Under the pieces are notes generated by a model. It was not told the origin of the DNA, searched no databases, and saw only the letters and a list, made by a program, of their open reading frames with translations. 64,000 nucleotides of DNA from Cuniculiplasma divulgatum. GTDB taxonomy: Archaea > Thermoplasmatota > Thermoplasmata > Thermoplasmatales > Thermoplasmataceae. This document shows, one piece after another, positions 27,826 to 57,242 of this stretch. A program made the translations under genes and the position numbers. The DNA is taken from the NCBI GenBank assembly GCA_031200235.1, contig CP133595.1, positions 868,001 through 932,000 of the forward strand, written 5' to 3'. The stretch's first letter is position 1, and each line of letters starts with the position of its first letter.

Positions 27826-28067
27826 TTCATTTCAATAGAATAACTCCATATTAATATAGTGTAAACGAGTGGGAGTAAATTGAGGACAGAGGTAGCCGTA
27901 TCACCAGTAAAAGTTGATGAACAGCTAAGAGCAAAAGCAATCTCTAAGAAGTTTATTGAAACTTCCTGTTTTAAAGGTCAGATGTATTATGTCTCTTCAC
28001 CTGTAAGTTTCTGCGCCAAAAGATGAGAAAACGTAACTGGACAGAATTCACCTGCCATTTACACAAA
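27826..28067. other. Intergenic stretch at the left edge of the island
   Basis: Holds the promoter of the DUF3427 gene (an AT-rich CTATATTAAT on the minus strand at about 27850-27860). It also has a 48-codon TTG-started frame at 27880-28026 with no recognisable product. It ends at the first tRNA-Ala-derived repeat. Confidence 0.4.
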
Positions 28068-28106
28068 TGGGCCTGTCGGGATTTGACTGAGGTTTTAAAT
28101 GAACGC
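28068..28106 (+). repeat. tRNA-Ala 3'-end repeat R1
   Basis: Leftmost copy of the island repeat. The core differs from the tRNA-Ala 3' end (TGGACCGGTCGGGATTTGA) at a few positions, and an arm ending in TTTTAAATGAAC follows. The cassette it opens holds a broken vapB remnant. Confidence 0.7.
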
Positions 28107-28185
28107 ATTGAATAGGCAGAATAACGAAGCAATCTTGCTGTTGGTTTTGTGAAAAGTTATATGATGTTTAAACAAAAACATATGT

Positions 28186-31467: not shown

Positions 31468-31520
31468 CTAGTCCATTATTACTGATTTTTTAACGAGATA
31501 ATTGTGCATGATCGCAACTA

Positions 31521-31559
31521 TGGGCCAGTCATTATTTGCTTAGCGATTTAAGCGAATAC
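31521..31559 (+). repeat. tRNA-Ala 3'-end repeat R3
   Basis: The core TGGGCCAGTC..ATTTGCT is followed by an arm ending TTTAAGCGAATAC. It closes the VapBC cassette at 30860-31467 and opens the DUF1801 cassette. Confidence 0.65.
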
Positions 31560-31624
31560 CGTAATTTAAGACATAAGAACGGAATGATCTTGTATATTTG
31601 TGCAATTTATAAATAGAAGATTCT

Positions 31625-34218: not shown

Positions 34219-34436
34219 TATGTGCTATCTATATTTTGTGTATAATGATTTATACCCTCTAATATAGTACATTAAGACTCGTCATTGAATTATATGGAAT
34301 ATAAATCGACCTCAAGTAACCTGATTTCCTTAAATCACGCTTTATAAATTCTATTTTGAATCACTAACACGTTCAAAGGAAAAGCCTGCGTTCAGTCTAT
34401 GCTTTTACCTATAAGCAAATTCAGTTATAGCCAGAG

Positions 34437-34475
34437 TGGACCTGTTCGGATTTGATTAAAATTTTAAGTTAATAC
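34437..34475 (+). repeat. tRNA-Ala 3'-end repeat R5
   Basis: TGGACCTGTTCGGATTTGA, then TTAAAATTTTAAGTTAATAC. The core differs from tRNA-Ala by two substitutions and a one-base shift. Confidence 0.7.
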
Positions 34476-34616
34476 TAAATGGTTACTAAATATCTGTATT
34501 GTGCTGGATAATCGGTAGGTATTACATCTCTTTCAGGATTGATTAATATTTCTGACAAACAAGATAAATAGGGTACAATGAAACAATCTCATCTATAATA
34601 TTGGAAAAAATAATAA

Positions 34617-34853: not shown

Positions 34854-35254
34854 TTCTTCTAGACACTGACGTCATCATAGAAATTCTGGATAGGGAATCA
34901 GACAAAGGCGATGAACTAATGCTTAAAATCATCGAAAGCGGGGAAGAATACTGCACGAGTTCAGTGAACATGCATGAGGTTCTTTACGGTATGGAAAAAT
35001 ACTCCAAAAATTCCAGTCCGGTTCTGCAAATACCAACTCTGGACTTCACTAAAAAAGATAGCGAACTATCAGCTGTTTTGGAGTTGAGCGCGGAAAGAAA
35101 AGGAAAAGCAGTTCCAAGAATGGATTCCATTATTGCTTCCATAGCAATTAACAACGGCTGCTCACTTTATACTCTGGATGAACATTTTGAAGTTTTTACA
35201 GCGGATGGTCTCAAGCTGTTCACAGGGGGTTCGAATGAACCGGTCAGGGTTTGA
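34850..35254 (+). CDS. VapC PIN-domain toxin whose C-terminus is encoded by a repeat
   Basis: I start it at TTG 34850, which gives the classic N-terminus 'ILLDTDVIIEIL' and overlaps the antitoxin stop; a GTG at 34835 would add five residues. PIN acidic residues: Asp in 'LDTDV', Glu in 'NMHEVLYG', Asp in 'RMDSIIAS', Asp in 'TLDEHF'. The last residues ('NEPVRV') and the TGA stop are encoded by repeat R6. About 134 residues. Confidence 0.85.
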   Translation: MILLDTDVIIEILDRESDKGDELMLKIIESGEEYCTSSVNMHEVLYGMEKYSKNSSPVLQIPTLDFTKKDSELSAVLELSAERKGKAVPRMDSIIASIAINNGCSLYTLDEHFEVFTADGLKLFTGGSNEPVRV

Positions 35255-35273
35255 TAAAGTTTTAAGGGAATAC
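35236..35273 (+). repeat. tRNA-Ala 3'-end repeat R6, overlapping vapC
   Basis: The core TGAACCGGTCAGGGTTTGA forms the last codons and stop of the upstream toxin. The arm, ending TTTTAAGGGAATAC, is outside the gene. Confidence 0.7.
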
Positions 35274-35346
35274 CTGAAATTTCTGAAGATATTGATGAAA
35301 AATCATAAATACTGTGGTGCATTATAGAGTGATATAGTGGTTCCAA

Positions 35347-36378: not shown

Positions 36379-36836
36379 AAAAATTCTGGAATCCGGGGCA
36401 AACTTGGTATAAACTAAGTTAACAGAATGGACCGGTAGGTATTTGATTATAGCTTTAAGCGAATACTGAACCTCCAGGATTTACAGGTAAAATTATTTCT
36501 TTTGTCCGCCCAATAAATAAGTGGGATACTGACTGGAATCCCCCACAAGATCATTTAAGGCAACCTCCTTAACTTACTTTTTCTTAGGTGCGGTAAGGTC
36601 TTCGAAGTGGAGTTCACTCATGCCATTGACATAAACTTATATCACACAATAAAAATGACTGGACAAATATATGCTGTGTGAGCATACCACATTTGAGAAG
36701 CTTTAGAAAGCTAAGGCGCCGTTATTCCGAGAACACATTTGTGGAAATGAGAGAATGGAGAAAACGGATTCCAATTTAGCTCTTAAAACTTTTAATCAAC
36801 TTAAAGTTTAATAACTATTGCTACCCATTGTTGCCT
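36379..36836. other. Gap with repeat R7 and no convincing gene
   Basis: Contains R7 (36428-36466) and the promoter of the next antitoxin. A short minus-strand frame (36574-36621, 15 codons, then a stop and 25 more codons in the same frame) was seen, but no protein is recognised. Confidence 0.4.
36428..36466 (+). repeat. tRNA-Ala 3'-end repeat R7
   Basis: TGGACCGGTAGGTATTTGA, followed by TTATAGCTTTAAGCGAATAC. The core differs from the tRNA at two positions. Confidence 0.75.
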
Positions 36837-37352: not shown

Positions 37353-37366
37353 TAATTTATGTCTGA

Positions 37367-37405
37367 TAGACCGACCTGGATTTGGTTAGAGTTTTAAGCG
37401 AATAC
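37367..37405 (+). repeat. tRNA-Ala 3'-end repeat R8
   Basis: TAGACCGACCTGGATTTGG, followed by TTAGAGTTTTAAGCGAATAC. It starts 14 bases after the relE remnant. Confidence 0.7.
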
Positions 37406-37453
37406 TTTCAGATATTCTCTAATAACCTTATGGCCATTCAATTTATTGTTTCA

Positions 37454-39308: not shown

Positions 39309-39331
39309 AAAATTCAATGAATAAAAACTAG

Positions 39332-39370
39332 TGGATCGGTCGGTATTTGCTTAAAGTCCTAAGCGAACAT
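39332..39370 (+). repeat. tRNA-Ala 3'-end repeat R9
   Basis: TGGATCGGTCGGTATTTGC, followed by TTAAAGTCCTAAGCGAACAT. The arm, but not the core, is identical to that of R13. Confidence 0.75.
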
Positions 39371-39483
39371 TCTGAAATATGATTTCCAGACGAAAAATAT
39401 AGTGCGCTTTTGAAGGGGAGTGTTTGAACTGTATCCATGACAGTTTACCGTTAAATGTTCATATGGTGTGATGATTAGCATTC

Positions 39484-39720
39484 ATGGTCAAAACCACCAT
39501 AAACCTGGACGAAGAGATCTACGCTGAAATCATCAAGGAATCCATAGAAAAATATGGCAGCACAAAGAATATGTCGAAGATCATTAACCAACGCCTCAGG
39601 AACAGGATGAACACTACAGGGAAACGTAAAGTGCGAATTACCTTCAAGGCAAAAGAGAATCTTTCATCTCTGGATGCGGACAAGGAGATAAGGGAGGGAT
39701 GGGAGGAAAGCAATAAATGA
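39484..39720 (+). CDS. VapB antitoxin, copy 1
   Basis: 78 residues: 'MVKTTINLDEEIYAEIIKES' (RHH strand-helix), then a basic middle 'RLRNRMNTTGKRKVRI' and an acidic tail ending 'REGWEESNK'. Overlaps vapC by ATGA. An identical copy stands at 46378. Intact. Confidence 0.82.
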   Translation: MVKTTINLDEEIYAEIIKESIEKYGSTKNMSKIINQRLRNRMNTTGKRKVRITFKAKENLSSLDADKEIREGWEESNK

Positions 39721-40124
39721 CGGTCCTAGTTGACACCAGTGTTCTGGTGTATGATACCATAGAGAATTCCCCGCATCATGATAGTGCTAGTGAGCTTATC
39801 GATGAGTCAAATGATCCCATAATAAATTCGCTGTCAATTGTTGAACTTGGTTTTGTGCTTCCAAGGTATGGAATAGATAATGAAAGTGTTCGAATGAAGA
39901 TAGAGGAATTATTGCAAAGTGATTATTTCACAGTCTCCTGGCTTTCTGGAAAGATGATGGAAAAAGTATCCTCTTTCATGGCTGAAAACAAGCTGAGTTT
40001 CAGAGATTTCAATGACTGGATAATAGCGTATGATGCAAATTCGAGAAAGGTACCTTTAGTCACTTTTGATAAAATACTGCAAAAGCAATGCAAAAAGCTT
40101 GGTATCCAAGTTATTGAGATCTAG
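39717..40124 (+). CDS. VapC PIN-domain toxin, copy 1
   Basis: 135 residues. PIN residues: Asp in 'TVLVDTSVLVYDT', Glu in 'IVELGFVL', Asp in 'FRDFNDWIIAYDA' and a late Asp in 'LVTFDKILQ'. Overlaps the antitoxin by 4 bases. An identical copy at 46611 implies recent duplication of the whole cassette. Confidence 0.88.
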   Translation: MTVLVDTSVLVYDTIENSPHHDSASELIDESNDPIINSLSIVELGFVLPRYGIDNESVRMKIEELLQSDYFTVSWLSGKMMEKVSSFMAENKLSFRDFNDWIIAYDANSRKVPLVTFDKILQKQCKKLGIQVIEI

Positions 40125-40133
40125 TTTGATGAA

Positions 40134-40180
40134 TGGGCCGGTCTGGATTTGAACCCGAGGTCTCCTGCTTTTGAAGCTGC
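40134..40180 (+). repeat. Repeat R10: tRNA-Ala core continuing into a tRNA body fragment
   Basis: The core TGGGCCGGTCTGGATTTGA is not followed by the usual arm but by ACCCGAGGTCTCCTGCTT, which is the next part of tRNA-Ala (T-loop to anticodon arm) with one mismatch. Identity then breaks down before the anticodon stem is complete. It is a truncated tRNA gene end and cannot make a tRNA. Confidence 0.75.
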
Positions 40181-40227: not shown

Positions 40228-42102
40228 TCACTCCATTCGTGTCTTAAAGAACCTCTCGGTGTCTTTGTCGACAAAATAGACATAGCATCCTTCCATACCT
40301 CGCGAAAGGAGTATTCGGTATATGTTTTTCACATAGGTGATGAATCTTTCTTTTGATCGGGCCGCTGCGGGGTCCTTTGAATTCTCAGGATGGGCTTCCC
40401 ATTTTTGTCCGTCTAGGTTGTACTTCAGATCAAGACCAAAAATTACCCCTACATAATCAAACTCAAATCCTTGTGCTGTATACACACATCCAATTTGATG
40501 GATTCCATTTGGGTCGTGGGCCCATAAGGTCTCCTTCGGAATTCCCTCTCCCAATCTTCGTGAACTGACTCCTGACTTTGCATTCCATGGTCTTTTAAAG
40601 TCACCTATAGAAACATCTGGAACGAGCTGTCCATTCTCCATTGGATCAGACCATTCCCAACAGAAGCCAGCTACAATTCTGGCTTTTTTACCGCTTTCAG
40701 ATTTTTCCATAATTGCGCGTTCAAGGGATTCCGGAGACTGAAAAATCCTAAAGTCAAAACTGTCATTACCAGACCAGATAACGTCTGCGGTTTTTTCAAT
40801 TCCAAGTGTATTGTTAATCCAGCTTACAAATGCATCCGACCCCTGGCATCTGAATTGTGCCTGCAGCTTGAATTTGAGGACATTAGACCCCATTTGGTTG
40901 GCATGTTCCTCAATATACTGAACGGTCCCCACCTCATTGGGGCGTATGATCTGAAGATTATCTACAAAAAATACAGGTACCTTTGCGGCATTTATTATCT
41001 GATCGACGATCGGAGTGTCAACTCTGTCCTCTTTTCTTGTAAATCTATCGAGATTTTTAGGCCACATTCTATGGGCTTCATCAGCTATCACAACATCAAC
41101 TGCATCTCTTTCAGTTTTTCCATATTTATTGAAATGCATTAACTGCAAGGAACTTTTGTTTCCCAAGATTTTATTCAAAGTACCAGTAAATGCACGTGAA
41201 CCGGTTACATAATGTGTATTATAGTGTCGTCCAGATAGTTTGCCCATCAGATTCATAGCTATAACTGATTTTCCAGTTCCCGGTCCACCCTCAATTATAA
41301 TGGTTGTTTTCTTTCCATTCTTAAAACTCTTTTCCACAGCGTTAATTACCATGTCAAAGGCAACTAGTTGTTCATCCAGCAATGTATATTCATCTGAACC
41401 ATTTATAATCGCTGCAATGTGGTCAAGCAACTTTTTGCTGGGCCTAATTTTCCCTCCTTCAACGCGGCTGAGCACTCTCATTCCATCACCGCCTGACAGT
41501 TTCTCAACCAGGTAATCACCAAGCTCCTTGACCTCATCCTTCGTGAAGATAGGAAAGTTGGAAATGAAAGGTTCAAATTTTACCGAGTAAATCTCATCTT
41601 CTGGGTTGTATGGATAATTATGCAGATATGAGCATGCATTGAGCAATATGGGCGATCTCCCTTCGTAGAAGGCAGTGTGGTAGTTCTGTAGATATTCTTT
41701 GTATTGTCCTACCTGCACAGATGGGTGAAGCACGTCCCTAAACCCACCATTTAAGATAGTCTTTAACTCACGCTCCCCATCTGATGGTTTGGTTGTCTGC
41801 CATTGTTTTAATTCCATTATTACTGCCTGATCCTTGTTTTGACCGTCTTTACCACACACAAGGCAATCCAAACGTTTGGAAGTTTGAGGGAGCCTATATT
41901 CTAGAATAACTCCATGGTCGTTCAATTTAGCTCGATCAAATATCATGGAAACAGATCTCAGTGAGTTCTGCCAGGAATTTACCTCAGACTGGCTTGGATT
42001 ATAATGAAACTGTTCGAAGAAACTGATTTTTAGTTTGTCAGCAATTTTGTTATTGTAAACATCGTCAATAAATTGTTCACTGGATCCGGAATATAGTCGC
42101 AT
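40228..42102 (-). CDS. DUF2075-type ATPase/helicase with N-terminal nuclease-like domain
   Basis: 624 residues. A PD-(D/E)XK-like motif lies in the N-terminus (Asp79 in 'RLDCLVCG', Glu97-x-Lys in 'IMELKQW'). P-loop: Walker A 'GGPGTGKS' at 272-279, DEAH-like box 'IADEAHRMW' at 341, and conserved 'YTAQGFEFDYVGVIFG' near the C-terminus, as in DUF2075 (Schlafen-like) helicases. Such proteins often occur in defence islands. It is the main gene of the R10-R11 interval. No TA partner is seen. Confidence 0.75.
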   Translation of the reverse strand: MRLYSGSSEQFIDDVYNNKIADKLKISFFEQFHYNPSQSEVNSWQNSLRSVSMIFDRAKLNDHGVILEYRLPQTSKRLDCLVCGKDGQNKDQAVIMELKQWQTTKPSDGERELKTILNGGFRDVLHPSVQVGQYKEYLQNYHTAFYEGRSPILLNACSYLHNYPYNPEDEIYSVKFEPFISNFPIFTKDEVKELGDYLVEKLSGGDGMRVLSRVEGGKIRPSKKLLDHIAAIINGSDEYTLLDEQLVAFDMVINAVEKSFKNGKKTTIIIEGGPGTGKSVIAMNLMGKLSGRHYNTHYVTGSRAFTGTLNKILGNKSSLQLMHFNKYGKTERDAVDVVIADEAHRMWPKNLDRFTRKEDRVDTPIVDQIINAAKVPVFFVDNLQIIRPNEVGTVQYIEEHANQMGSNVLKFKLQAQFRCQGSDAFVSWINNTLGIEKTADVIWSGNDSFDFRIFQSPESLERAIMEKSESGKKARIVAGFCWEWSDPMENGQLVPDVSIGDFKRPWNAKSGVSSRRLGEGIPKETLWAHDPNGIHQIGCVYTAQGFEFDYVGVIFGLDLKYNLDGQKWEAHPENSKDPAAARSKERFITYVKNIYRILLSRGMEGCYVYFVDKDTERFFKTRME

Positions 42103-43247: not shown

Positions 43248-43350
43248 AAAAAATATCCATACCAACAGTGGAAACGTAAGGAGGGTGATAATATAGAGGA
43301 GAATCTTTATGCAAATTCCTTAATATTCAACGGTCCGTATTAGTCAAAAA

Positions 43351-43389
43351 TGGACCGGTCGGGATTTGGCTAATGTTTTAAGGGAACAC
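43351..43389 (+). repeat. tRNA-Ala 3'-end repeat R11
   Basis: The first 18 bases match the tRNA-Ala 3' end (TGGACCGGTCGGGATTTG); then GC, TAATGTTTTAAGGGAACAC. One of the best-preserved cores. Confidence 0.85.
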
Positions 43390-43398
43390 TATACAAAC

Positions 43399-44453: not shown

Positions 44454-44491
44454 CTCTATAAATCACAAGGTTTCTAAACATTAATGTGGAA

Positions 44492-44530
44492 CGGACCGGT
44501 CGGGATTCGCTCAAAACATTAAGCGAATAA
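44492..44530 (+). repeat. tRNA-Ala 3'-end repeat R12
   Basis: CGGACCGGTCGGGATTCGC, then TCAAAACATTAAGCGAATAA. The core differs from the tRNA in 3 of 19 bases. Confidence 0.75.
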
Positions 44531-44663
44531 TTTTGCAGTACTTGAAAAATAGGAAACACTTCATTATCTCACAATGAGTAAATATTACTCGACACCCATG
44601 TCTAAATGGGCTGAAAGAAAACTATTATATTGTGGTTATACATTAATTATATGATGGATATAC

Positions 44664-46136: not shown

Positions 46137-46225
46137 TTGCTATCAATACGTTCTTTGAATAGGTAATAGCATACCAGGCAGGAGGAAAAGTTATACACAG
46201 AATATGAGAGAATTGGAATTTACAA

Positions 46226-46264
46226 CGGATCGGATGGGAGTTGATTAAAGTCCTAAGCGAACAT
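46226..46264 (+). repeat. tRNA-Ala 3'-end repeat R13
   Basis: CGGATCGGATGGGAGTTGA, then TTAAAGTCCTAAGCGAACAT. Its arm is identical to the arm of R9; its core is not. Confidence 0.75.
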
Positions 46265-46377
46265 TCTGAAATATGATTTCCAGACGAAAAATATAGTGCG
46301 CTTTTGAAGGGGAGTGTTTGAACTGTATCCATGACAGTTTACCGTTAAATGTTCATATGGTGTGATGATTAGCATTC

Positions 46378-46614
46378 ATGGTCAAAACCACCATAAACCT
46401 GGACGAAGAGATCTACGCTGAAATCATCAAGGAATCCATAGAAAAATATGGCAGCACAAAGAATATGTCGAAGATCATTAACCAACGCCTCAGGAACAGG
46501 ATGAACACTACAGGGAAACGTAAAGTGCGAATTACCTTCAAGGCAAAAGAGAATCTTTCATCTCTGGATGCGGACAAGGAGATAAGGGAGGGATGGGAGG
46601 AAAGCAATAAATGA
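46378..46614 (+). CDS. VapB antitoxin, copy 2
   Basis: Identical in protein sequence to the antitoxin at 39484. Part of the duplicated cassette. Confidence 0.82.
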   Translation: MVKTTINLDEEIYAEIIKESIEKYGSTKNMSKIINQRLRNRMNTTGKRKVRITFKAKENLSSLDADKEIREGWEESNK

Positions 46615-47018
46615 CGGTCCTAGTTGACACCAGTGTTCTGGTGTATGATACCATAGAGAATTCCCCGCATCATGATAGTGCTAGTGAGCTTATCGATGAG
46701 TCAAATGATCCCATAATAAATTCGCTGTCAATTGTTGAACTTGGTTTTGTGCTTCCAAGGTATGGAATAGATAATGAAAGTGTTCGAATGAAGATAGAGG
46801 AATTATTGCAAAGTGATTATTTCACAGTCTCCTGGCTTTCTGGAAAGATGATGGAAAAAGTATCCTCTTTCATGGCTGAAAACAAGCTGAGTTTCAGAGA
46901 TTTCAATGACTGGATAATAGCGTATGATGCAAATTCGAGAAAGGTACCTTTAGTCACTTTTGATAAAATACTGCAAAAGCAATGCAAAAAGCTTGGTATC
47001 CAAGTTATTGAGATCTAG
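46611..47018 (+). CDS. VapC PIN-domain toxin, copy 2
   Basis: Identical in protein sequence to the toxin at 39717, with the same PIN acidic residues and 4-base overlap with the antitoxin. Having two identical pairs means either antitoxin can neutralise either toxin. Confidence 0.88.
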   Translation: MTVLVDTSVLVYDTIENSPHHDSASELIDESNDPIINSLSIVELGFVLPRYGIDNESVRMKIEELLQSDYFTVSWLSGKMMEKVSSFMAENKLSFRDFNDWIIAYDANSRKVPLVTFDKILQKQCKKLGIQVIEI

Positions 47019-47027
47019 TTTGATGAA

Positions 47028-47066
47028 TGGGCCGGTCTGGATTTGATTAAAGTTTTAAGGGAACAC
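47028..47066 (+). repeat. tRNA-Ala 3'-end repeat R14
   Basis: TGGGCCGGTCTGGATTTGA (core identical to R10), then TTAAAGTTTTAAGGGAACAC. Left border of the copper/cupredoxin cassette. Confidence 0.85.
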
Positions 47067-47253
47067 CATAAATTCTTTTAAACCCAATGTGAATCTATTT
47101 TGTAGTGAAAACAAAGCATTTGTTGCTTTCTGTATGGTGGCATACGGCGTACTACACCTTCTAAGATATCACTGTATTAAGTTCTTTTGCTGGTGAAATT
47201 GGAAATACTTTATACCCACCTACAGTACCAGAAAAGAGTTAAGAACTCACATA

Positions 47254-47269
47254 GTCTAACATAATAGAC
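47254..47269. promoter_or_regulatory. Inverted repeat before the DUF4396 gene
   Basis: GTCTA and TAGAC separated by 6 bases. A candidate operator, weak. Confidence 0.25.
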
Positions 47270-47296
47270 CATAAGACCCAGAAGAAGTTGTGTGAA

Positions 47297-48115
47297 ATGT
47301 ATACCTCAGTTCTTGAAGGGGTGATATTGCTTTGGTTTGCGCTTGCATTTCCCTTTCTTATATTCGTAATCCTGGACATACGTTCCACCCCGGAGAACCC
47401 AATCCTTAAACTGGGATTTGTCTTGGTAACAGCTTATACAGGAGTTATAGGGGCTTTCCTTTATGTGGTAGGGTGCAGAGAGCCTCTACCTGGTCTTCAT
47501 GAACGCTACGTTTCTGCAAGATGGAGACAGGTACTCGGGTCGACAATCCACTGCGTCGCAGGAGACGGCATAGGAATATTAGTGGGTGCGGTAATTAGTT
47601 CTGTAATACACGTTTCTCCATTTTTTGATGTGCCCATTGAATATTTTCTTGGTTTTCTTTTTGGATGGGCGATATTCCAGTCACTGTTCATGCGTGATAT
47701 GGCAGGTGGTTCTTACAGGCGTTCTTTAGCTTCGACTTTTATACCGGAACTGCTCTCCATGAATCTGCTGATGACTGCAATGATTCCCATTTCCACTATC
47801 TCCTTGGCAAACCTTCCTGAAGGTCATAACCCGTTAGGAGTGGTGTTCTGGTTTATATTCTCCATGGCTCTCCTGGGAGGCTTAGGAATGGCTTACCCAA
47901 TGAACTGGTGGCTGGTGTCAAGGCACCTTAAGCACGGCATGATGACTGTCAGGCCTAAAACACACGATTCAGAAAATATGACAAGCCAGCATATAGATAT
48001 GCACCACATGAAAGAATCTCTTCCTGGTAGGAGGATCATATTGATAATGGCATCCATATCAATTCTGGCGCTAACCGCAGGAATAACGATTGCATGGCTT
48101 TTTGGCGGTCTGTAA
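47297..48115 (+). CDS. DUF4396 membrane protein
   Basis: About 272 residues with about seven hydrophobic helices. 'IHCVAGDGIGILVGAVI' and the C-terminal 'AYPMNWWLVSRHLKHGMM' match the DUF4396 family, found beside copper and heavy-metal genes in many bacteria and archaea. A Met/His-rich segment ('HIDMHHM') before the last helix could bind copper. ATG 47297 preferred to TTG 47288. Convergent with the copper ATPase. Function not established. Confidence 0.7.
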   Translation: MYTSVLEGVILLWFALAFPFLIFVILDIRSTPENPILKLGFVLVTAYTGVIGAFLYVVGCREPLPGLHERYVSARWRQVLGSTIHCVAGDGIGILVGAVISSVIHVSPFFDVPIEYFLGFLFGWAIFQSLFMRDMAGGSYRRSLASTFIPELLSMNLLMTAMIPISTISLANLPEGHNPLGVVFWFIFSMALLGGLGMAYPMNWWLVSRHLKHGMMTVRPKTHDSENMTSQHIDMHHMKESLPGRRIILIMASISILALTAGITIAWLFGGL

Positions 48116-48169
48116 ATGTGTGTCGAAGTAAAATAAAAAGTGTGATATCTGCTTTATTAAGCCTGTATT

Positions 48170-50278
48170 TCAATCCGAAGGATGGGGCTGAGCCGTTTTT
48201 GAGTAAAGGCGAAGGTCCCTTCTTTTCCATTCCTTGCTCATCTTCTTTCTGAGCATCAGAGAGTTTATCACCACAGATGATGAACTCATGCCCATTGCAA
48301 ACGCAGCGAGGATCGGAAGCACAGAGAAGACGGACAATCCGAGAAAGGGAACCAGCACCCCGCCAGCAATTGGCATCAGCAGCGTGTTGTAGCCCACAGC
48401 CCACCCGATGTTCTGCTTTATCTTTGTGATGGTTTTGGTTCCTATGATCCTGGTCAGTATGAGCTGTCTCAGGTCGTTGTTAATGAGTATAATGTCACCA
48501 CTTTCCCTAGCGATATCCGTGCCGGAGCCCATTGCAATACCAACGTCTGCTGTTTCAAGTGCCACGGTATCATTGATACCATCTCCTGTAAACATGACGA
48601 AGTCTCCTTTCGCCTGGTATTCCTTGATAATTTCTGATTTGTTTTCCGGAAGAACCTCCGCGTGGATATCATTGATTCCAAGAATGTTGGCAACCCTTTC
48701 GGCCTCAGATTTCGAATCCCCCGTTACCATGGCAGTTCTTATGCCGAGCTTCCTGAGTTCTGTTATTGTGGCAACTGCACTCTCCCGAACGGTGTATGCA
48801 AGCGTTATATCTCCTATACTCAAACCGTCCACGTAAACGGATACCACAGATCCTCCCGCACGACTGGCCCTAGTTATTTTTACCTCCCTGCCATCAACAG
48901 TGCCCGATATTCCCATACCAGGCATCTCTTTGACCCCCTGCGCCTCATCGATCGAAATGGAGGCTTTTCCAGCCTCCTTTATTATGGCCCTGGCTATGGG
49001 ATGGTTGGAAGATCTCTCAACGGAAGCTGCCATACGCAGCATATCATCTCTTGACCATCCGCTTTCAGGGAGAATGTGAGTAACAGCCGGATCCGGCTCC
49101 GTAAGTGTGCCAGTCTTGTCGAATACAGCCATATTGACCTTTGACAGCCTGTCCAGAGCGCTGGTATTCTTTATTATTATACCGTTCTCGGAGGCGTAAT
49201 TCGAGGATATGAGTAATGTGATTGGCCCGGCAAGTCCGATGGCACACGGGCAGGCTATGACTACAACCGAGACAAATGCCAGGACTGCAATTTCCAGGGG
49301 AAGGGCAAAACCTGTACTATTGAGGTAGAAATACCAGAATAGTCCCGAAGCCAGGGCCGCGGCAATTACCACTGGAACAAATATTGCTGAGAACACGTCT
49401 GCAATTCTCTGTACTTTTGCCCTTCCTGAAATTGCCCTCTGGATCAGTTCATATATCTGGCTAACGGTACTGTTCTTTCCAGTCCTTGTAACACTGATCT
49501 TAAGGACGCCATTGAGGTTGGAAGTGCCGGATGAAACTGTGTCGCCTTTCTTTTTCAATACCGGTTCCTGTTCTCCGGTGAGCATGGATTCATCCACTTC
49601 AGCCGAACCGTCGTAGATTTTCCCGTCTGCAGGGATGGATTCGCCAGGCCTTATAAGTATAATGTTGCCTTCCCTGAGTTCGTCTGTTGGTGTGTCAACT
49701 TCCTTTCCATTTTCTGTGATCACGTGCGAAACATTTGGGATAAGCTCCAGAAGCTTACTGGCAGCCCTGTTGGCACGAACCTTTGTCAGGTTCTCAATGA
49801 AGTTTCCCGTGAGTATGAGTGTAATGATGAATGCAGACGCGTCAAAGTAGACGTCTGCAGCCGGTATCTTACCTGGGAAAAAGGTAACATAGCTGGAGAA
49901 TATGAATGCAGTAAGTGTTCCCATTGAGATCAGGAGGTCCATGTTTCCGGATCTGCTCCTGATAGCATGATATGCTCCTTCGTAGAATCCATATCCAGAG
50001 TAAAACTGAACCGGAAGAGTCAGCATAAAGAGGGCAATATCCTTGTATGCCTGTCCAAGAAAAAGGCTTCCTGGAACCAGGTAGTTTATGATTATGATCG
50101 GTATCGCGAGGCCCCACCCAAGAACAAGTCGCCTTTTTAGGCGAGTCGCTTCTTTTTCCGGTGAACTATACTTCTGCTGGCAGGTTTTAGAACAAAAATA
50201 GTACGTTTGCCCGTCGACTACCGACGTCAGATCGGTATCCTCAGGTACAAACATTCCACATACGGGATCAGTTGGCAT
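48170..50278 (-). CDS. copA: Copper-exporting P1B-type ATPase with N-terminal YHS domain
   Basis: 702 residues. An N-terminal YHS domain has 'DPVCGMFVPE' and 'YYFCSKTC' (Cys7, 29, 33) in place of a classical CxxC heavy-metal domain. Actuator 'LTGEQEP', CPC at 343-345 in 'VIACPCAIG', phosphorylation site 'DKTGTLTE' at 387, HP locus 'SNHPIARA' and hinge 'GDGINDTVALE'. The last helix 'MGMSSSSVVINSL' fits Cu+ export. The ends converge with the DUF4396 gene. Copper-responsive control through the TRASH regulator at 50506 is likely. Confidence 0.93.
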   Translation of the reverse strand: MPTDPVCGMFVPEDTDLTSVVDGQTYYFCSKTCQQKYSSPEKEATRLKRRLVLGWGLAIPIIIINYLVPGSLFLGQAYKDIALFMLTLPVQFYSGYGFYEGAYHAIRSRSGNMDLLISMGTLTAFIFSSYVTFFPGKIPAADVYFDASAFIITLILTGNFIENLTKVRANRAASKLLELIPNVSHVITENGKEVDTPTDELREGNIILIRPGESIPADGKIYDGSAEVDESMLTGEQEPVLKKKGDTVSSGTSNLNGVLKISVTRTGKNSTVSQIYELIQRAISGRAKVQRIADVFSAIFVPVVIAAALASGLFWYFYLNSTGFALPLEIAVLAFVSVVVIACPCAIGLAGPITLLISSNYASENGIIIKNTSALDRLSKVNMAVFDKTGTLTEPDPAVTHILPESGWSRDDMLRMAASVERSSNHPIARAIIKEAGKASISIDEAQGVKEMPGMGISGTVDGREVKITRASRAGGSVVSVYVDGLSIGDITLAYTVRESAVATITELRKLGIRTAMVTGDSKSEAERVANILGINDIHAEVLPENKSEIIKEYQAKGDFVMFTGDGINDTVALETADVGIAMGSGTDIARESGDIILINNDLRQLILTRIIGTKTITKIKQNIGWAVGYNTLLMPIAGGVLVPFLGLSVFSVLPILAAFAMGMSSSSVVINSLMLRKKMSKEWKRRDLRLYSKTAQPHPSD

Positions 50279-50289
50279 TTATGTTCTCC

Positions 50290-50430
50290 TTACCTACTGT
50301 ATTTCAGGGGGTTCTTGTCGAATTCTGACTTGCAGTGGCTACTGCAGAAGTAGAACGTTTTTCCCTGGAACTCGCTCTTCAGGTCAGTGCTCTCCTTCAC
50401 TTTCATTCCGCATATTACATCTGTGGCCAT
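50290..50430 (-). CDS. Small YHS-domain metal chaperone-like protein, 46 aa
   Basis: From ATG 50430 it reads 'MATDVICGMKVKEST' and ends 'YFCSSHCKSEFDKNPLKYS', a stand-alone YHS domain (Cys pattern like that at the start of the ATPase). A longer frame to 50499 is unlikely. It sits between the copper ATPase and the divergent regulator, the place of the TRASH-type chaperone CopM in Sulfolobus. Likely hands Cu+ to the exporter. Confidence 0.75.
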   Translation of the reverse strand: MATDVICGMKVKESTDLKSEFQGKTFYFCSSHCKSEFDKNPLKYSR

Positions 50431-50505
50431 AGTTATGAATTGTGTTGATATACATATATTATATCTATCCATAATGTTAAAGTAGATGAGTAAAATCATT
50501 ACATT
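50431..50505. promoter_or_regulatory. Divergent promoter region of the copper genes
   Basis: About 75 bases with AT-rich boxes for both directions (TAATATAT for the minus strand, AATGTTAAAG about 27 bases before ATG 50506). The regulator probably binds here; no clear palindrome was picked. Confidence 0.4.
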
Positions 50506-51042
50506 ATGAGAAGAAATCTTTCTGAACTGGAACAGAGGCTCATATTATTGCTCAAGAGAAATTCCAGGATGAGCATAGTGGACATGGCAAGTGAGCTGGG
50601 CATCAGCAGGCTTACGGCCAAGAAAGCCCTGGACTCCATAATATCAAGCGGAAGGATCAAGAAATTCACCATCTCCATTGCAGATGAAGAAAAGGATATG
50701 GTCCTCGTATACACTGACAATTTAGAGAACATACCGGAAAATATTATCCTGGAGCGCTTCTCTCTCATAGACGGATCCTATATGGTGATCCTCTACTATG
50801 AGGACCTCATAAAGTTAAAGAAGGCTAGCATAAAAAGAGTTGAAATAGCAACCTCAAGAGAATCGTATGAAAACATGAACAGGGTAGAAAATATCCACTG
50901 CGATTACTGCGGAAAAGAGATCAAGGACAGTCCGATCTCAGTAGGAATAAGGGGGAAGACATATTACGTGTGCTGTCCGAACTGTGAGAGAGACCTCAAG
51001 AAAAGAGGGGAGATGATTCCTGAAGAAGATTCCAGACACTAG
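50506..51042 (+). CDS. copT: Copper-responsive HTH regulator with C-terminal TRASH domain (CopT/CopR-like)
   Basis: 178 residues. An N-terminal Lrp/AsnC-like helix-turn-helix ('SIVDMASELGISRLTAKKAL', about 23-42) is followed by an effector-like middle and a C-terminal TRASH zinc-knuckle with Cys132, 135, 156, 157 and 160 ('CDYCGKEI', 'YYVCCPNC'). Sulfolobales CopT/CopR have the same order and control copA. Divergent from the ATPase/YHS pair. Confidence 0.85.
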   Translation: MRRNLSELEQRLILLLKRNSRMSIVDMASELGISRLTAKKALDSIISSGRIKKFTISIADEEKDMVLVYTDNLENIPENIILERFSLIDGSYMVILYYEDLIKLKKASIKRVEIATSRESYENMNRVENIHCDYCGKEIKDSPISVGIRGKTYYVCCPNCERDLKKRGEMIPEEDSRH

Positions 51043-51179
51043 CATGTACGGATAGATGCTGTTGATAAAAGGGATGCTACAGTTCTAATCAAACATTCTC
51101 ATAACGTCTAATATATTGGAGCTGCCTGGACAGTTTGGTCAGAGATATTATAAATAACTGAGATGAATTATAATCTACC

Positions 51180-51593
51180 ATGAGTTCAGTGAGAGATTTA
51201 ACTAACGGAGTGGACTCATCATCTGGCGTGGCTGAAAATAAACTGGCGGACAAGAATTCAAACATTCCAGATTCAATTGCTGTTGGGAAAGGGAAAGTTG
51301 AATCGGGAAAGGGAGTAATAAAGGCTGTTAAAGGGAAATTTTTAGTCTTGGAACTGGTTGAAGAAAAAGGGCCTTGCCCCGATAATATGTGCCAATTGGA
51401 AGCTAAAATCACTGCAAGGATTCTTTATGACATCAACGATCCATCCCTATATGAAATGATTAAAACAGACAGGTTCACAATAGCCATCAGCAAAGCTGTC
51501 TGGCGCGCCATAGATAGGGGCAGGCAGAACATCTCTATCAGGAAAGGACGATTTGGCAGTCTGATCGTGAAGGGTTTCTCACTAACCTACTGA
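51180..51593 (+). CDS. Unrecognised protein, 137 aa
   Basis: A disordered, Ser/Asn-rich first 40 residues leads to a beta-rich domain ('VIKAVKGKFLVLELVEEKG', 'GPCPDNMCQLEAKIT'). Two Cys ('CPDNMC') could bind a metal. 'RIILYD'-like and 'RFTIAISKAVWRAIDRGRQN' follow. No family is recognised. Position within the copper cassette is the only clue. Confidence 0.5.
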   Translation: MSSVRDLTNGVDSSSGVAENKLADKNSNIPDSIAVGKGKVESGKGVIKAVKGKFLVLELVEEKGPCPDNMCQLEAKITARILYDINDPSLYEMIKTDRFTIAISKAVWRAIDRGRQNISIRKGRFGSLIVKGFSLTY

Positions 51594-51732
51594 TACGCCC
51601 ATGCTCTTTTACACCATCTTATGGGGTGTGATCTCACCTCAGGGTGATTCTTATCGTTATGTACGTTTCTGGTGATCATATTTTACAGATTGAATAAAGT
51701 ATGGTTTTATACATTAACAAGATTTCATAACT

Positions 51733-51924
51733 ATGTCTTGTGGATGTATGAAGAATTCGGGAAACCACATGGGAAAGCATCAAATGCACAGCCATGGCGA
51801 TGAGGAAAACTCCTCAGCGGATGACACTAAAACTGCACTGGAAATACTGAATGAGAGGTATGCAAGAGGAGAAATCGGAAAAGAAGAGTATTTAAGCATG
51901 AAGAATGAAATTCTGTCCAGGTGA
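51733..51924 (+). CDS. SHOCT-domain protein with Cys/His/Met-rich N-terminus, 63 aa
   Basis: The N-terminus 'MSCGCMKNSGNHMGKHQMHS' has Cys, His and Met suited to copper binding. The C-terminal 'ALEILNERYARGEIGKEEYL' is a SHOCT motif. ATG 51733 has an AT-rich box about 25 bases upstream. The next gene starts 5 bases after its stop. Probably a small metal buffer or oligomerising adaptor. Confidence 0.7.
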   Translation: MSCGCMKNSGNHMGKHQMHSHGDEENSSADDTKTALEILNERYARGEIGKEEYLSMKNEILSR

Positions 51925-51928
51925 AGAA

Positions 51929-52321
51929 ATGGCAACTGAATACAGAGTCAAAACAGAGCGTTCTTTTGATGAAGCGTGTGACAAGGTTAGAGAGATTGTA
52001 CCTCTAAACGGTTTCTCTATACTATCTGAGATCAGGATAGGCGAGATCCTGAGGTCAAAGGGGTTTAAATATCCTAATTTCACAACCTTTGATATCTGCA
52101 ATCCTGAATATGCACATGAAGCCCTTTCCTTCGACCACAAGGTAGAGACGCTCATTCCATGCCATCTGATAGTAAAATCAGTGGAAGACGGTGCTGAGAT
52201 ATCTGCTCAAATGCCTGCAGAAATTTTCCATACCATTCAGACAGATAAGATGGAACAGAAGACGGCCTTTCTAAATGAGGTTGAAACAAAGCTCAAAATC
52301 GTTGTTGACTCACTCATATAA
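51929..52321 (+). CDS. DUF302-family protein
   Basis: About 130 residues. 'FDEACDKVREIVPLNGFSIL', 'EYAHEALSFDHKVETLIPCH' and 'VKSVEDGAEISAQMP' fit DUF302, common next to copper and SHOCT genes. The single Cys lies in 'LIPCHLIV', a place where the family often shows a CN motif. Start ATG 51929 is 5 bases after the SHOCT gene. Function unknown. Confidence 0.75.
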   Translation: MATEYRVKTERSFDEACDKVREIVPLNGFSILSEIRIGEILRSKGFKYPNFTTFDICNPEYAHEALSFDHKVETLIPCHLIVKSVEDGAEISAQMPAEIFHTIQTDKMEQKTAFLNEVETKLKIVVDSLI

Positions 52322-52634
52322 TCGTTAAATGGGCCCAGGTACAGGCGGGAAACCTGCCTGGCGCACCAATATTTTGCTGCAGAGATTGTTTCCTTATGGT
52401 ATAAAATGCATGAATGGATATTTGCCTGTGCGAATTCATTCGACGAGAGGCAGCGACCCATCAGGGTTGGTTTTATCGTTAACTATTGTTTTTCATCCTT
52501 TTAGTTGGTCCTGTCATTTGGCTCAAAATACTCGCTTATTTCGCAGGCACATCAAAAATCCGCCGCAAAGCAATGATGTTTACTTCAAACTAATTGAAAA
52601 AGTTAGATAGGCAGCATTGCTGCTGCCCGTATAA
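52322..52634. other. Gap with a possible membrane-protein remnant
   Basis: No convincing gene. At 52495-52593 a 32-codon frame ('ILLVGPVIWLKILAYFAGTS') looks like the last helix of a lost membrane protein; its N-terminal side is out of frame. Otherwise unexplained. Confidence 0.3.
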
Positions 52635-53237
52635 TTATTGTTCTACAACTATCCTCCCATACATCCCGTTTTCAGCATGACCGGGATAGGTACACAGGTA
52701 CCAGTACGTTCCGGATTGCGAAAAACTGTAACTCATATTGTAGTAATAGAAATAACCCGAATTTGTTGGTGGAAGAAAGCTCATGGATGTCATCGAACTG
52801 TATCCCCCCGATCCCATGGAACCCATTCCGCTCATGTAGGGATATGGTGGACCCTGATTGCTAAGTACAAAATTATGTTCAGAATCGGTATCGATATTTA
52901 CCACTGTGAAATGAACAGTCACTCCCTCTTTGATCACTATCGTTGGGTTGTACATGCCTAGTATCTCAAAACTGTACATGCTCGGTCCGTTCATGGGTCC
53001 AGTCATCACAAGCAAGCTGCTGGAACTGTTTATGTAAATAGTCGAGTTAGTCTGTGAAGCATAAACTCCCGGCTCTGTTACATTCAAACCTTCAAGCTGT
53101 GACTGCGTCAGGTGCTGGGAACTGCTGGGTGTGTTGTATCCACCGTAGTAGTAGAAAGCCGAAAATACAAGCACGACAGTAAGGAAAGCAACTCCCACAA
53201 TTCCTATAGCTTTATATTTGTTCATAGAAAATTTCAC
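52635..53237 (-). CDS. Blue copper protein, rusticyanin/sulfocyanin-like
   Basis: 200 residues: one N-terminal membrane anchor ('AIGIVGVAFLTVVLVFSAFY') and an exported cupredoxin domain. The four type-1 copper ligands are readable: His121 ('SEHNFVL'), Cys182, His187 and Met192 ('YLCTYPGHAENGMYG'). A Gly/Ser/Met-rich insert ('MSGMGSMGSGGYSSM') precedes the last strands. Rusticyanin-type proteins carry electrons at low pH, for example in iron oxidation or toward terminal oxidases. Start at 53237 or Met 53225. It overlaps the upstream SHOCT gene by 4 bases. Confidence 0.85.
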   Translation of the reverse strand: MKFSMNKYKAIGIVGVAFLTVVLVFSAFYYYGGYNTPSSSQHLTQSQLEGLNVTEPGVYASQTNSTIYINSSSSLLVMTGPMNGPSMYSFEILGMYNPTIVIKEGVTVHFTVVNIDTDSEHNFVLSNQGPPYPYMSGMGSMGSGGYSSMTSMSFLPPTNSGYFYYYNMSYSFSQSGTYWYLCTYPGHAENGMYGRIVVEQ

Positions 53238-53602
53238 CTTCTTATGGTTTCAATCATCTGACGGTATTCTGACTCAGATATTTCTCCCCTTGCGAATCTT
53301 TCTTTCGCAATCTCCTCTGCCCTTGCCATCCGATCAACAGGTCGATGCGGTTCAGGGGTTCGAACGTCTTCAAATATGAAATAAATGAACACCAACACCA
53401 AGATTACCGATATCACACCTATGATCGGCATTATTATTCCCATACCATAGAAGCCACCCATCATCCCATATGGGCCATAGGTTCCATTGTAATAGTTGCC
53501 TCCAAACAGAATGGAGACAATTATTGTAACTGCCGCAACTACAGAGACAAGCGCCACAATGAACCACATCAAGTTTTCAAAATGTTTACCCATGGTACTC
53601 AT
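53234..53602 (-). CDS. SHOCT membrane protein
   Basis: 122 residues: two hydrophobic spans with a Gly/Tyr/Met-rich loop between them ('YGPYGMMGGFYGMGI'), then 'RAEEIAKERFARGEISESEY', a SHOCT motif. It overlaps the cupredoxin gene by 4 bases, so co-expression is certain. Likely a small assembly or scaffold protein for the copper protein; function inferred. Confidence 0.75.
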   Translation of the reverse strand: MSTMGKHFENLMWFIVALVSVVAAVTIIVSILFGGNYYNGTYGPYGMMGGFYGMGIIMPIIGVISVILVLVFIYFIFEDVRTPEPHRPVDRMARAEEIAKERFARGEISESEYRQMIETIRR

Positions 53603-53650
53603 ATATGGTGGAAAGACACTTAATTCTTGGTTGAAACATGTTTCATGAAA

Positions 53651-54211
53651 CTAATTTGAATAGGTTTCAGTAAGGATTATTTCATTTGTTACGCCTTTTC
53701 TCATCTTCACAACCACCCCTTTATTCTCCAATGCTGTCAGGGTCCTGGATATGGAGGCTTTTGAGGCATTAATTGTTGTCACTATATCACTTTGAAGCAT
53801 TTTATTTCCATTTTTGTTTATGAGATCTATGATTTCAAGCTCTAAATCTGTAAAGTGTTCCGGGTTAATTCTGATCGGTGAGGCAGTATTACCAGATGGG
53901 TACGACCCATCCAGTTTCGATAAGACAATGGTTTTGTACTCTGTATGTTCAGGTTGAATCAGTGGATATAGCGTCATTAGCCCTTTTACAGAGAGTGCCG
54001 AAATAACAAGATTAACAATTACTATCCCCGTAAAAAGATAGAAAAAGTCATCAGTAACTCTCCCCTCAAGATAAACAACGACCACAAAAAATGTAACGGA
54101 TATGACTACGATAAGGAGAGAGAGCAAGAGGGATATGCCATAGAATATGACCCGTCTTGTAACCTGTGGTCTCCCAGATTCTGCGAGGGTAATGGCTTTG
54201 GTGTTTCTCAT
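53651..54211 (-). CDS. Membrane-anchored winged-helix regulator
   Basis: 186 residues: two N-terminal membrane spans, then a cytoplasmic winged helix ('LELEIIDLINKNGNKML', 'INASKASISRTLTALENKGV') typical of archaeal DUF7343/MarR-like membrane regulators. It sits between the two cupredoxin genes and probably controls them in response to a membrane or redox signal. A real target site could not be picked. Confidence 0.75.
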   Translation of the reverse strand: MRNTKAITLAESGRPQVTRRVIFYGISLLLSLLIVVISVTFFVVVVYLEGRVTDDFFYLFTGIVIVNLVISALSVKGLMTLYPLIQPEHTEYKTIVLSKLDGSYPSGNTASPIRINPEHFTDLELEIIDLINKNGNKMLQSDIVTTINASKASISRTLTALENKGVVVKMRKGVTNEIILTETYSN

Positions 54212-54231
54212 AAATCATTATGTCCTATAAT

Positions 54232-54879
54232 TTATTGGGCATAAATAGTTCCTGTCATCCAGCCAGGAGTGGACATTGCGCCTCCCCATCCTGTTGGTCC
54301 TGAACCACAAGCAGCCTCACATTGCCAGACATAGCTTCCGCTGCTGTTTAAGTAAAAAGAAGCAACCTCAGTATATCCCGCTATTACAGGAATGTTAACA
54401 ACGGTGCTCGAACCTTGTAAGATAGTGAAAGTATGCAATACTTTTGATGCTGGGAATGATGTTATGTTGGTAGACCATGACTTTGAAGTATTGCTTCCCA
54501 TAGCCGTAGTGCCGTTTATGACATAGACCTGATCATTTAGAACCCCACTGGCAGTCAAATACTGCGCAGGTACCGATGTGTTACCCATATCGTACGAAGT
54601 GATGGTGATGGTTATTTTTATGTGTGTAGGCAGGGTTATATTCGACGTGGATTGAAGTGTGCCATTCATAACCTCATAGTACCTGGGTTGAGCTCCAATC
54701 GAACTGTTGTAGTTTGCGTCCATGACTTCTATCAAGTCAAGATGATATCCACCATTACTTTGCTGATTACTGCTCTGGCTACTGCTGACGGCGACCTGAT
54801 GGTCATAAGCAACACCAATTCCCACTCCCCCTATAATCACTATCGCGGAAACAATGGCGTAAAAGACTTTTTCCTGCAT
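54232..54879 (-). CDS. Membrane-anchored CuA-like cupredoxin (oxidase subunit II-type)
   Basis: About 215 residues from ATG 54879; a longer frame to 54942 is less likely. An N-terminal anchor ('IVSAIVIIGGVGIGV') is followed by an external beta domain. The C-terminal loop 'WQCEAACGSGPTGWGGAM' resembles the CuA loop (C-x3-C-G-x-G-H...M) of cytochrome oxidase subunit II, but the His after the second Cys region reads Pro here. Either copper binding is altered or another His serves. A terminal-oxidase partner is not in the window. Confidence 0.6.
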   Translation of the reverse strand: MQEKVFYAIVSAIVIIGGVGIGVAYDHQVAVSSSQSSNQQSNGGYHLDLIEVMDANYNSSIGAQPRYYEVMNGTLQSTSNITLPTHIKITITITSYDMGNTSVPAQYLTASGVLNDQVYVINGTTAMGSNTSKSWSTNITSFPASKVLHTFTILQGSSTVVNIPVIAGYTEVASFYLNSSGSYVWQCEAACGSGPTGWGGAMSTPGWMTGTIYAQ

Positions 54880-55065
54880 AATGAAATAATGGTTGAGAAA
54901 ATTTAAAGGATCTGTTATCATAATGTAAAGGAAATGAATCATGATTATTCATAACGTATGGTAAGTGGAAGTCAGAAAAAAGATCATGATCGTGAGATTA
55001 ATCGTGTTGTAACTCCCATCATCGGCTGAGTTAGAGGCAGTTGACAGAATTAGGAAAACTCGGAA

Positions 55066-55104
55066 TGGACCGATCGGGATTTGATTAAAGTTTTAAGGGA
55101 ATAC
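55066..55104 (+). repeat. tRNA-Ala 3'-end repeat R15
   Basis: TGGACCGATCGGGATTTGA (one difference from the tRNA gene), then TTAAAGTTTTAAGGGAATAC. The closest match to the consensus; right border of the copper cassette. Confidence 0.9.
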
Positions 55105-55219
55105 CGTTGAAGGTTCTTGGGACAAGAAGGGAGTTGCTGTTCTCGCATTATACCTGGGATTGATACTTATGCCTGATTAGCAGCTTCGCAAATAGAGAAG
55201 AAAAAGCATATTACGGTAC

Positions 55220-57170: not shown

Positions 57171-57242
57171 TGGACCGGTCGGGATTTGAACCCGAGGCCT
57201 CCTGCTTGCAAAGCAGGCGATCTACCGCTGATCTACCGGCCC
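57171..57242 (-). tRNA. tRNA-Ala (anticodon TGC)
   Basis: The minus strand reads GGGCCGG (acceptor 5' side), D-arm, an anticodon stem CCTGC/GCAGG with loop TTTGCAA, a T-arm with GGTTCAAATCC, and CCGGTCC plus discriminator A. The acceptor contains the G3:U70 pair that marks tRNA-Ala. CCA is not encoded. Its 3' end (T-arm to A73) is the source of the core in all island repeats; the island lies directly beyond its 3' end. Confidence 0.95.

Follow-up and report, generated by a model that had tools for sequence, protein, structure and literature searches.

We analyzed a window of 64,000 nucleotides (positions 868001 to 932000 of the 2,006,340-base single-contig genome of Cuniculiplasma divulgatum), which contains a single tRNA gene, tRNA-Ala(TGC). 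On the 3' side of this gene, towards lower coordinates, lies an array of 41-nt sites, all in one orientation, which run from 28067 to 55065 and consist of 20 nt complementary to the 3' end of tRNA-Ala followed by a TTAAAGTTTTAAGSGAAYAC-type arm (Table 1). Direct-repeat sites that share an orientation and lie 3' of a single tRNA, which stands intact at the end, are the arrangement of tandem tRNA-anchored integration, and the array supports the original prediction that the repeats derive from tRNA-Ala. Genes for toxin-antitoxin (TA) systems are common both in the window and in those arrays of relatives that we examined, and the median spacing of sites was 1.4 kb over nine array stretches. The unit at 47068 to 55064, which carries a metal-type P-type ATPase, covers 8 kb and is far bigger than the other cassettes. 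PF00589 had no match in the window, and the strong match to Xer/IntI profiles among the proteins scanned was XerA.

Table 1. Features of the array, in positions of the window
Feature	Positions	Strand	Remarks
Repeat site, most distant from the tRNA	28067..28107	+	
Repeat site	31520..31560	+	
Repeat site	34436..34476	+	
Repeat site	35235..35274	+	1-nt indel
Repeat site	36427..36467	+	
Repeat site	37366..37406	+	
R9 core	39331..39350	+	GTGGATCGGTCGGTATTTGC; left half of R10's target
VapBC cassette, 802 bp, between R9 and R10	39351..40152	+	TTAAAG to GGATTTGA; 100% identical to 46245-47046
Putative antitoxin gene, 78 aa	39484..39720	+	Named by its position before the PIN gene; no Pfam match
PIN-domain (VapC-like) toxin gene	39717..40124	+	PF01850, E=6.4e-13
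R10 core	40133..40152	+	Complementary to the 3' end of tRNA-Ala; came with the VapBC cassette as its right end
R10 extension	40153..40177	+	ACCCGAGGTCTCCTGCTTTTGAAGC; covers tRNA-Ala from the T-stem to the anticodon loop; target's right half
Repeat site	43350..43390	+	
Repeat site	44491..44531	+	
Repeat site	46225..46265	+	Target core plus arm of the second VapBC copy
Second VapBC cassette copy	46245..47046	+	In an ordinary core+arm site; by sequence identity
Repeat site	47027..47067	+	Core identical to the R10 core
Repeat site of the tRNA-proximal cassette	55065..55105	+	
Intact tRNA-Ala(TGC)	57171..57242	-	Array anchor

The stretch from 40133 to 40177, which contains the repeat R10, reads ATGGGCCGGTCTGGATTTGA (core) followed by ACCCGAGGTCTCCTGCTTTTGAAGC (extension). 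Among the internal repeats, R10 alone continues its 20-nt tRNA-Ala core as tRNA (ACCCGAGGTCTCCTGCTT, 17/18 identical to tRNA-Ala) and not as a TTAAAG... arm, which confirms the original prediction that it runs on into tRNA-Ala where the other copies have the arm. Indeed, the core is followed by ACCCGAGG only at R10 and in the intact tRNA-Ala(TGC), the other repeats in the array continuing into the arm. A search of the 64-kb window for the 18-nt tRNA segment, at a threshold of at least 14/18, picked out just R10, at 17/18, and the tRNA, at 18/18, so the extension is not a chance match. The similarity reaches position 44 of the tRNA complement and ends there, in the anticodon loop and not within the 5' half. 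We then compared R10 with the 45 tRNAs of the genome and found Ala-CGC to be the best donor (39/44), followed by Ala-TGC (38/44), a choice that is insecure because the margin is one base; Ala-GGC reached 30/44. A non-Ala donor was rejected, as every other tRNA matched at 30/44 or less, and no unrelated tRNA thus explains the extension better. Just right of R10, at 40228 to 42102, lies a Schlafen group 3 helicase gene (PF09848), of which 8 other genomes of the family have homologues. A helicase cassette owning the left end at R10 was discarded, since the homologues in relatives have no core in front.

To the left of R10, the putative antitoxin and PIN-domain genes form a VapBC cassette that is present twice in the window. 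The two copies are identical across 802 bp, both starting with TTAAAGTCC and ending with GGATTTGA, and their flanks diverge from the first base outside: on the left, one copy is preceded by GGTATTTGC and the other by GGGAGTTGA, and on the right, one runs into ACCCGAGG and the other into TTAAAGTTTT. The variant core of R10 is also found at site 47027. Since an identical cassette meets different flanks at the very next base, and since 47027 carries R10's variant core, we assign the core of R10 to the cassette and the extension to its target. Comparison with the identical copy at 46245-47046 also mapped the breakpoint exactly between TTTGA and ACCC. Read from these alignments, R10 is a cassette/target junction and not a longer version of the repeat: the tRNA extension that had been described as a better-preserved repeat is real, but core and extension differ in origin. 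Full-length copies of the cassette were found in two genomes of one other genus, G033 (90%) and G032 (86%), with both ends alike and the arm that belongs to the cassette present in each copy, and a partial copy (78%) in G050.

Removal of the cassette joins the R9 core to the R10 extension and yields TGGATCGGTCGGTATTTGC followed by ACCCGAGGTCTCCTGCTTTTGAAGC, one decayed 44-nt piece of the tRNA-Ala 3' end. The joined piece matches the complement of Ala-CGC at 38/44 positions and that of Ala-TGC at 37/44. Compared with intact long cores, it has 6 or 7 mismatches in 44 positions, and two or three of these fall in the anticodon loop, so that its exact end is uncertain by 1 to 2 nt. The long cores of relatives measure 44 to 45 nt and run directly into an ORF, of which they form the first 15 codons (MDRSGFEPEASCLQS...) and whose product belongs to the PF16795 archaeal phage integrases (E about 1e-50). 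PF16795 members in other genomes have the 3' half of a tRNA at their start too, there of tRNA-Thr or tRNA-Leu, and decayed long cores occur at L092:6453, without an integrase, and in G042, with a broken one.

The 3' half of tRNA genes is where SSV-type (PF16795) archaeal integrases have their att cores (review, PMC8371274). The joined target resembles these cores in its extent, a tRNA 3' half of about 44 nt (44 to 45 nt, anticodon loop to 3' end) that in relatives lies within the integrase reading frame; unlike them, the R10 core has lost its integrase and is split by a later cassette, and the cassettes here exchange at the T-loop with just 20 nt of tRNA. No integrase gene overlaps the core at R10. 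Because no integrase remnant was seen right of R10 and PF16795 is absent from this genome, we call the target a remnant and not a living member of the SSV type. It is most likely, judging from sequence, a dead, displaced and decayed integrase-type attachment site whose integrase is gone and which was later hit by the cassette at the T-loop; a truncated tRNA gene, which would look much alike, is possible. The PF16795 integrase itself was rejected as the general mover of cassettes, since only 11 to 12 of the 77 genomes have it. When viral contigs were queried with a relative's PF16795 integrase, no relatives were found.

We propose, with a probability of roughly 0.7, that R10 is the right junction of a mobile VapBC cassette inserted site-specifically into a decayed integrase-type tRNA-Ala core of a tRNA-anchored array. 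The cassette would have recombined site-specifically, at the position of the T-loop, into a displaced 44-nt tRNA-Ala attachment site, most likely the remnant core of a PF16795, SSV-like element whose integrase gene is gone, an order of events that we infer. Each array unit would have TTAAAGTTTTAAGSGAATAC at its start and a copy of the tRNA 3' end, ATGGACCGGTCGGGATTTGA, at its finish. We further infer a circular unit, for which tRNA-Ala or another site would serve as the partner in recombination at TTTGA^, every insertion thus rebuilding the tRNA 3' end. The missing integrase trace to the right of R10 and the mismatches of the joined target to intact long cores count against this explanation, and so does one junction: in G033 (L204:2403), the left end of the VapBC cassette joins ATCACAAG, which is not a core, at the exact cassette boundary.

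The original prediction had taken R10 for a former array end that was later buried or copied. In that case a tRNA-Ala gene once stood at R10, next to which the array ended, and its 5' half was deleted after the cassette had inserted. The match of the extension to tRNA-Ala agrees with this, and so does a junction at a living tRNA: in G062, a cassette directly abuts the intact tRNA-Ala(TGC), which bears out the claim that a core followed by ACCCGAGG looks like a tRNA-proximal end. The junction type therefore stands, but what the cassette entered is a free 44-nt piece with the same end as the PF16795 cores. The similarity stops at position 44, as in the independent integrase-type cores, neither a D-arm nor an acceptor 5' strand follows the extension, and tRNA-Ala(TGC) and tRNA-Ala(CGC) are both still present elsewhere. 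As the free piece ends where the PF16795 integrase cores end, we favor an attachment-site remnant and regard a buried tRNA gene as unlikely.

The cassette of G062 also occurs, at 91%, within an array in G041, and the two copies part at TTTGA|, one continuing into the tRNA and the other into the arm. This is, at the level of sequence, the same exchange point as at R10, and it bears on a possible role of XerA, which is present and could move the cassettes, in the manner of pdif modules, at a dif-like palindrome (GGATTTGMTTA-6-TAAGSGAATAC). The best inverted repeat of the sites is indeed 11-6-11, an imperfect one with a mean of 7.3/11 pairs compared to a median of 2.2 (49 distinct sites). However, the R10 and G062 junctions put the exchange at TTTGA|, to the left of the 6-bp centre and not within it, and tRNA-Ala has no matching centre, so exchange by XerA at a dif-like site does not fit and is very improbable. 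About as improbable is that the two VapBC copies, which are direct, on the same strand, 6.9 kb apart and 100% identical, arose by homologous recombination or gene conversion, with ends at the core/arm junction as a by-product of the shared core, but both ends fall on the same two bases, as they do in the full-length copies of G033 and G032, and the flanks were not co-duplicated.

We then searched the family with a sequence model of the window's sites, and found sites in 57 of 77 genomes, covering 17 of the 19 genera of the host's family, as well as in a few genomes of the order outside this family. Over 58 sites, the consensus reads ATGGACCGGTCGGGATTTGMTTAAWGTTTTAAGSGAATACT. In a hand-transcribed list of the best-scoring sites, 56 of the 58 that share a contig with tRNA-Ala(TGC/CGC) were located on its 3' side, on the expected strand and within 60 kb. 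Of 565 ends of homologous stretches, 88 lay no more than 22 nt from a site (0.8% expected), and the peaks at -20, 0 and +20/21 correspond to the core start, the exchange point and the arm end; this signal is diluted, because the set includes some non-cassette and CRISPR matches. Six genomes (G020, G021, G027, G028, G029 and G009) have a tRNA-Ala with GGATTTGG in place of GGATTTGA at the exchange base. In this small sample, no listed site lay beside a GGATTTGG-type tRNA-Ala, and the site of G029 adjoins its GGATTTGA copy.

The best candidate for the recombinase that moves the cassettes is, by position, a 429-aa protein. Its gene adjoins tRNA-Ala in many relatives and tRNA-Ala(CGC) here (genome 1073205-1074494), and across genera the protein keeps 86 to 97% identity with the reference copy. 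The plasmid-like element that opens with this gene also encodes ParA, a serine resolvase and AAA ATPases, of which we read one as Orc1/Cdc6-like. The protein had no match above the cut-off in Pfam, and was similar to XerA (NF040815, E=1.4e-9, far below that profile's cut-off), to a PF00589 protein (hhalign, 96.5%) and to a PHROG integrase (E=5e-5). By these profile similarities, it is a distant relative of the Xer/integrase tyrosine recombinases. A single-sequence structure model (pLDDT 38) was too poor for use, a PDB profile search gave one weak and implausible match, and no relatives were found when plasmids were queried with the protein. In several genomes the first site lies 15 to 21 kb from tRNA-Ala, as if it marked the far end of the plasmid-like element, and the flank of tRNA-Ala at this element, TTTAATCTATTAATCGAATAC, resembles the inverted arm of the sites.

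Arrays of this type share features with several known systems. Like integrative elements that accrete in tandem at one tRNA gene, they stack on one side through successive insertions that each bring a new tRNA 3' end; unlike there, their units are mostly 1 to 2 kb long, none in the window has an integrase and many hold a single TA pair, and same-site arrays recur throughout a family. With integrons and CALINs, including archaeal integrons (PMC9668308, in which Thermoplasmat* is not mentioned), they have in common small promiscuous cassettes, which each carry a site and are arrayed beside an anchor site, and frequent TA cassettes. However, the anchor here is a tRNA gene, no IntI was identified among the proteins scanned, and the sites are tRNA-derived (tRNA 3' end plus inverted-repeat arm) and not attC-like by layout. 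As in pdif modules, in which XerCD sites surround TA and resistance genes, TA pairs lie between short sites that have an 11-6-11 inverted repeat, but the exchange point maps outside the 6-bp centre and the sites are chromosomal and tRNA-anchored. We found no description of such arrays in the open papers on genomic islands and archaeal integrons.

R10 supports a tRNA-anchored, integron-like cassette system in Thermoplasmatales. In a tentative model, to which we give slightly less than even odds, tRNA-Ala would serve as the capture site, the tRNA 3' end of the TA-rich cassettes as the recombination site, and the 429-aa Xer-like protein would mobilize the cassettes in trans. One odd repeat provides a base-exact map of cassette entry into the arrays and turns a list of repeats into a recombination system that is testable, since the relatives include cultured species. 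If the model is true, acidophilic archaea use the neighborhood of a tRNA gene to gather and swap toxin-antitoxin and other genes, along a route that is integron-like in its working but built from tRNA-targeting integration.

Other features were seen outside the array. In L208 (G067:C117), a stretch homologous to L069 of this genome is broken at GGGAT by TTGAACCCGAGGTCTCC..., which shares R10's GGTCTCC variant, a possible insertion at a secondary site. This genome has, in close vicinity, an integrase pseudogene fragment, a lone repeat site and a tRNA-Met with an intron (181152, 183095 and 183348), and a tyrosine recombinase gene and an integrase fragment were found beside tRNA-Asp (133451) and tRNA-Pro (830129), respectively. 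Finally, about 3.6 kb with a 65-bp period (L070:14831-18440, genome 1023830-1027440) looks like a CRISPR array.
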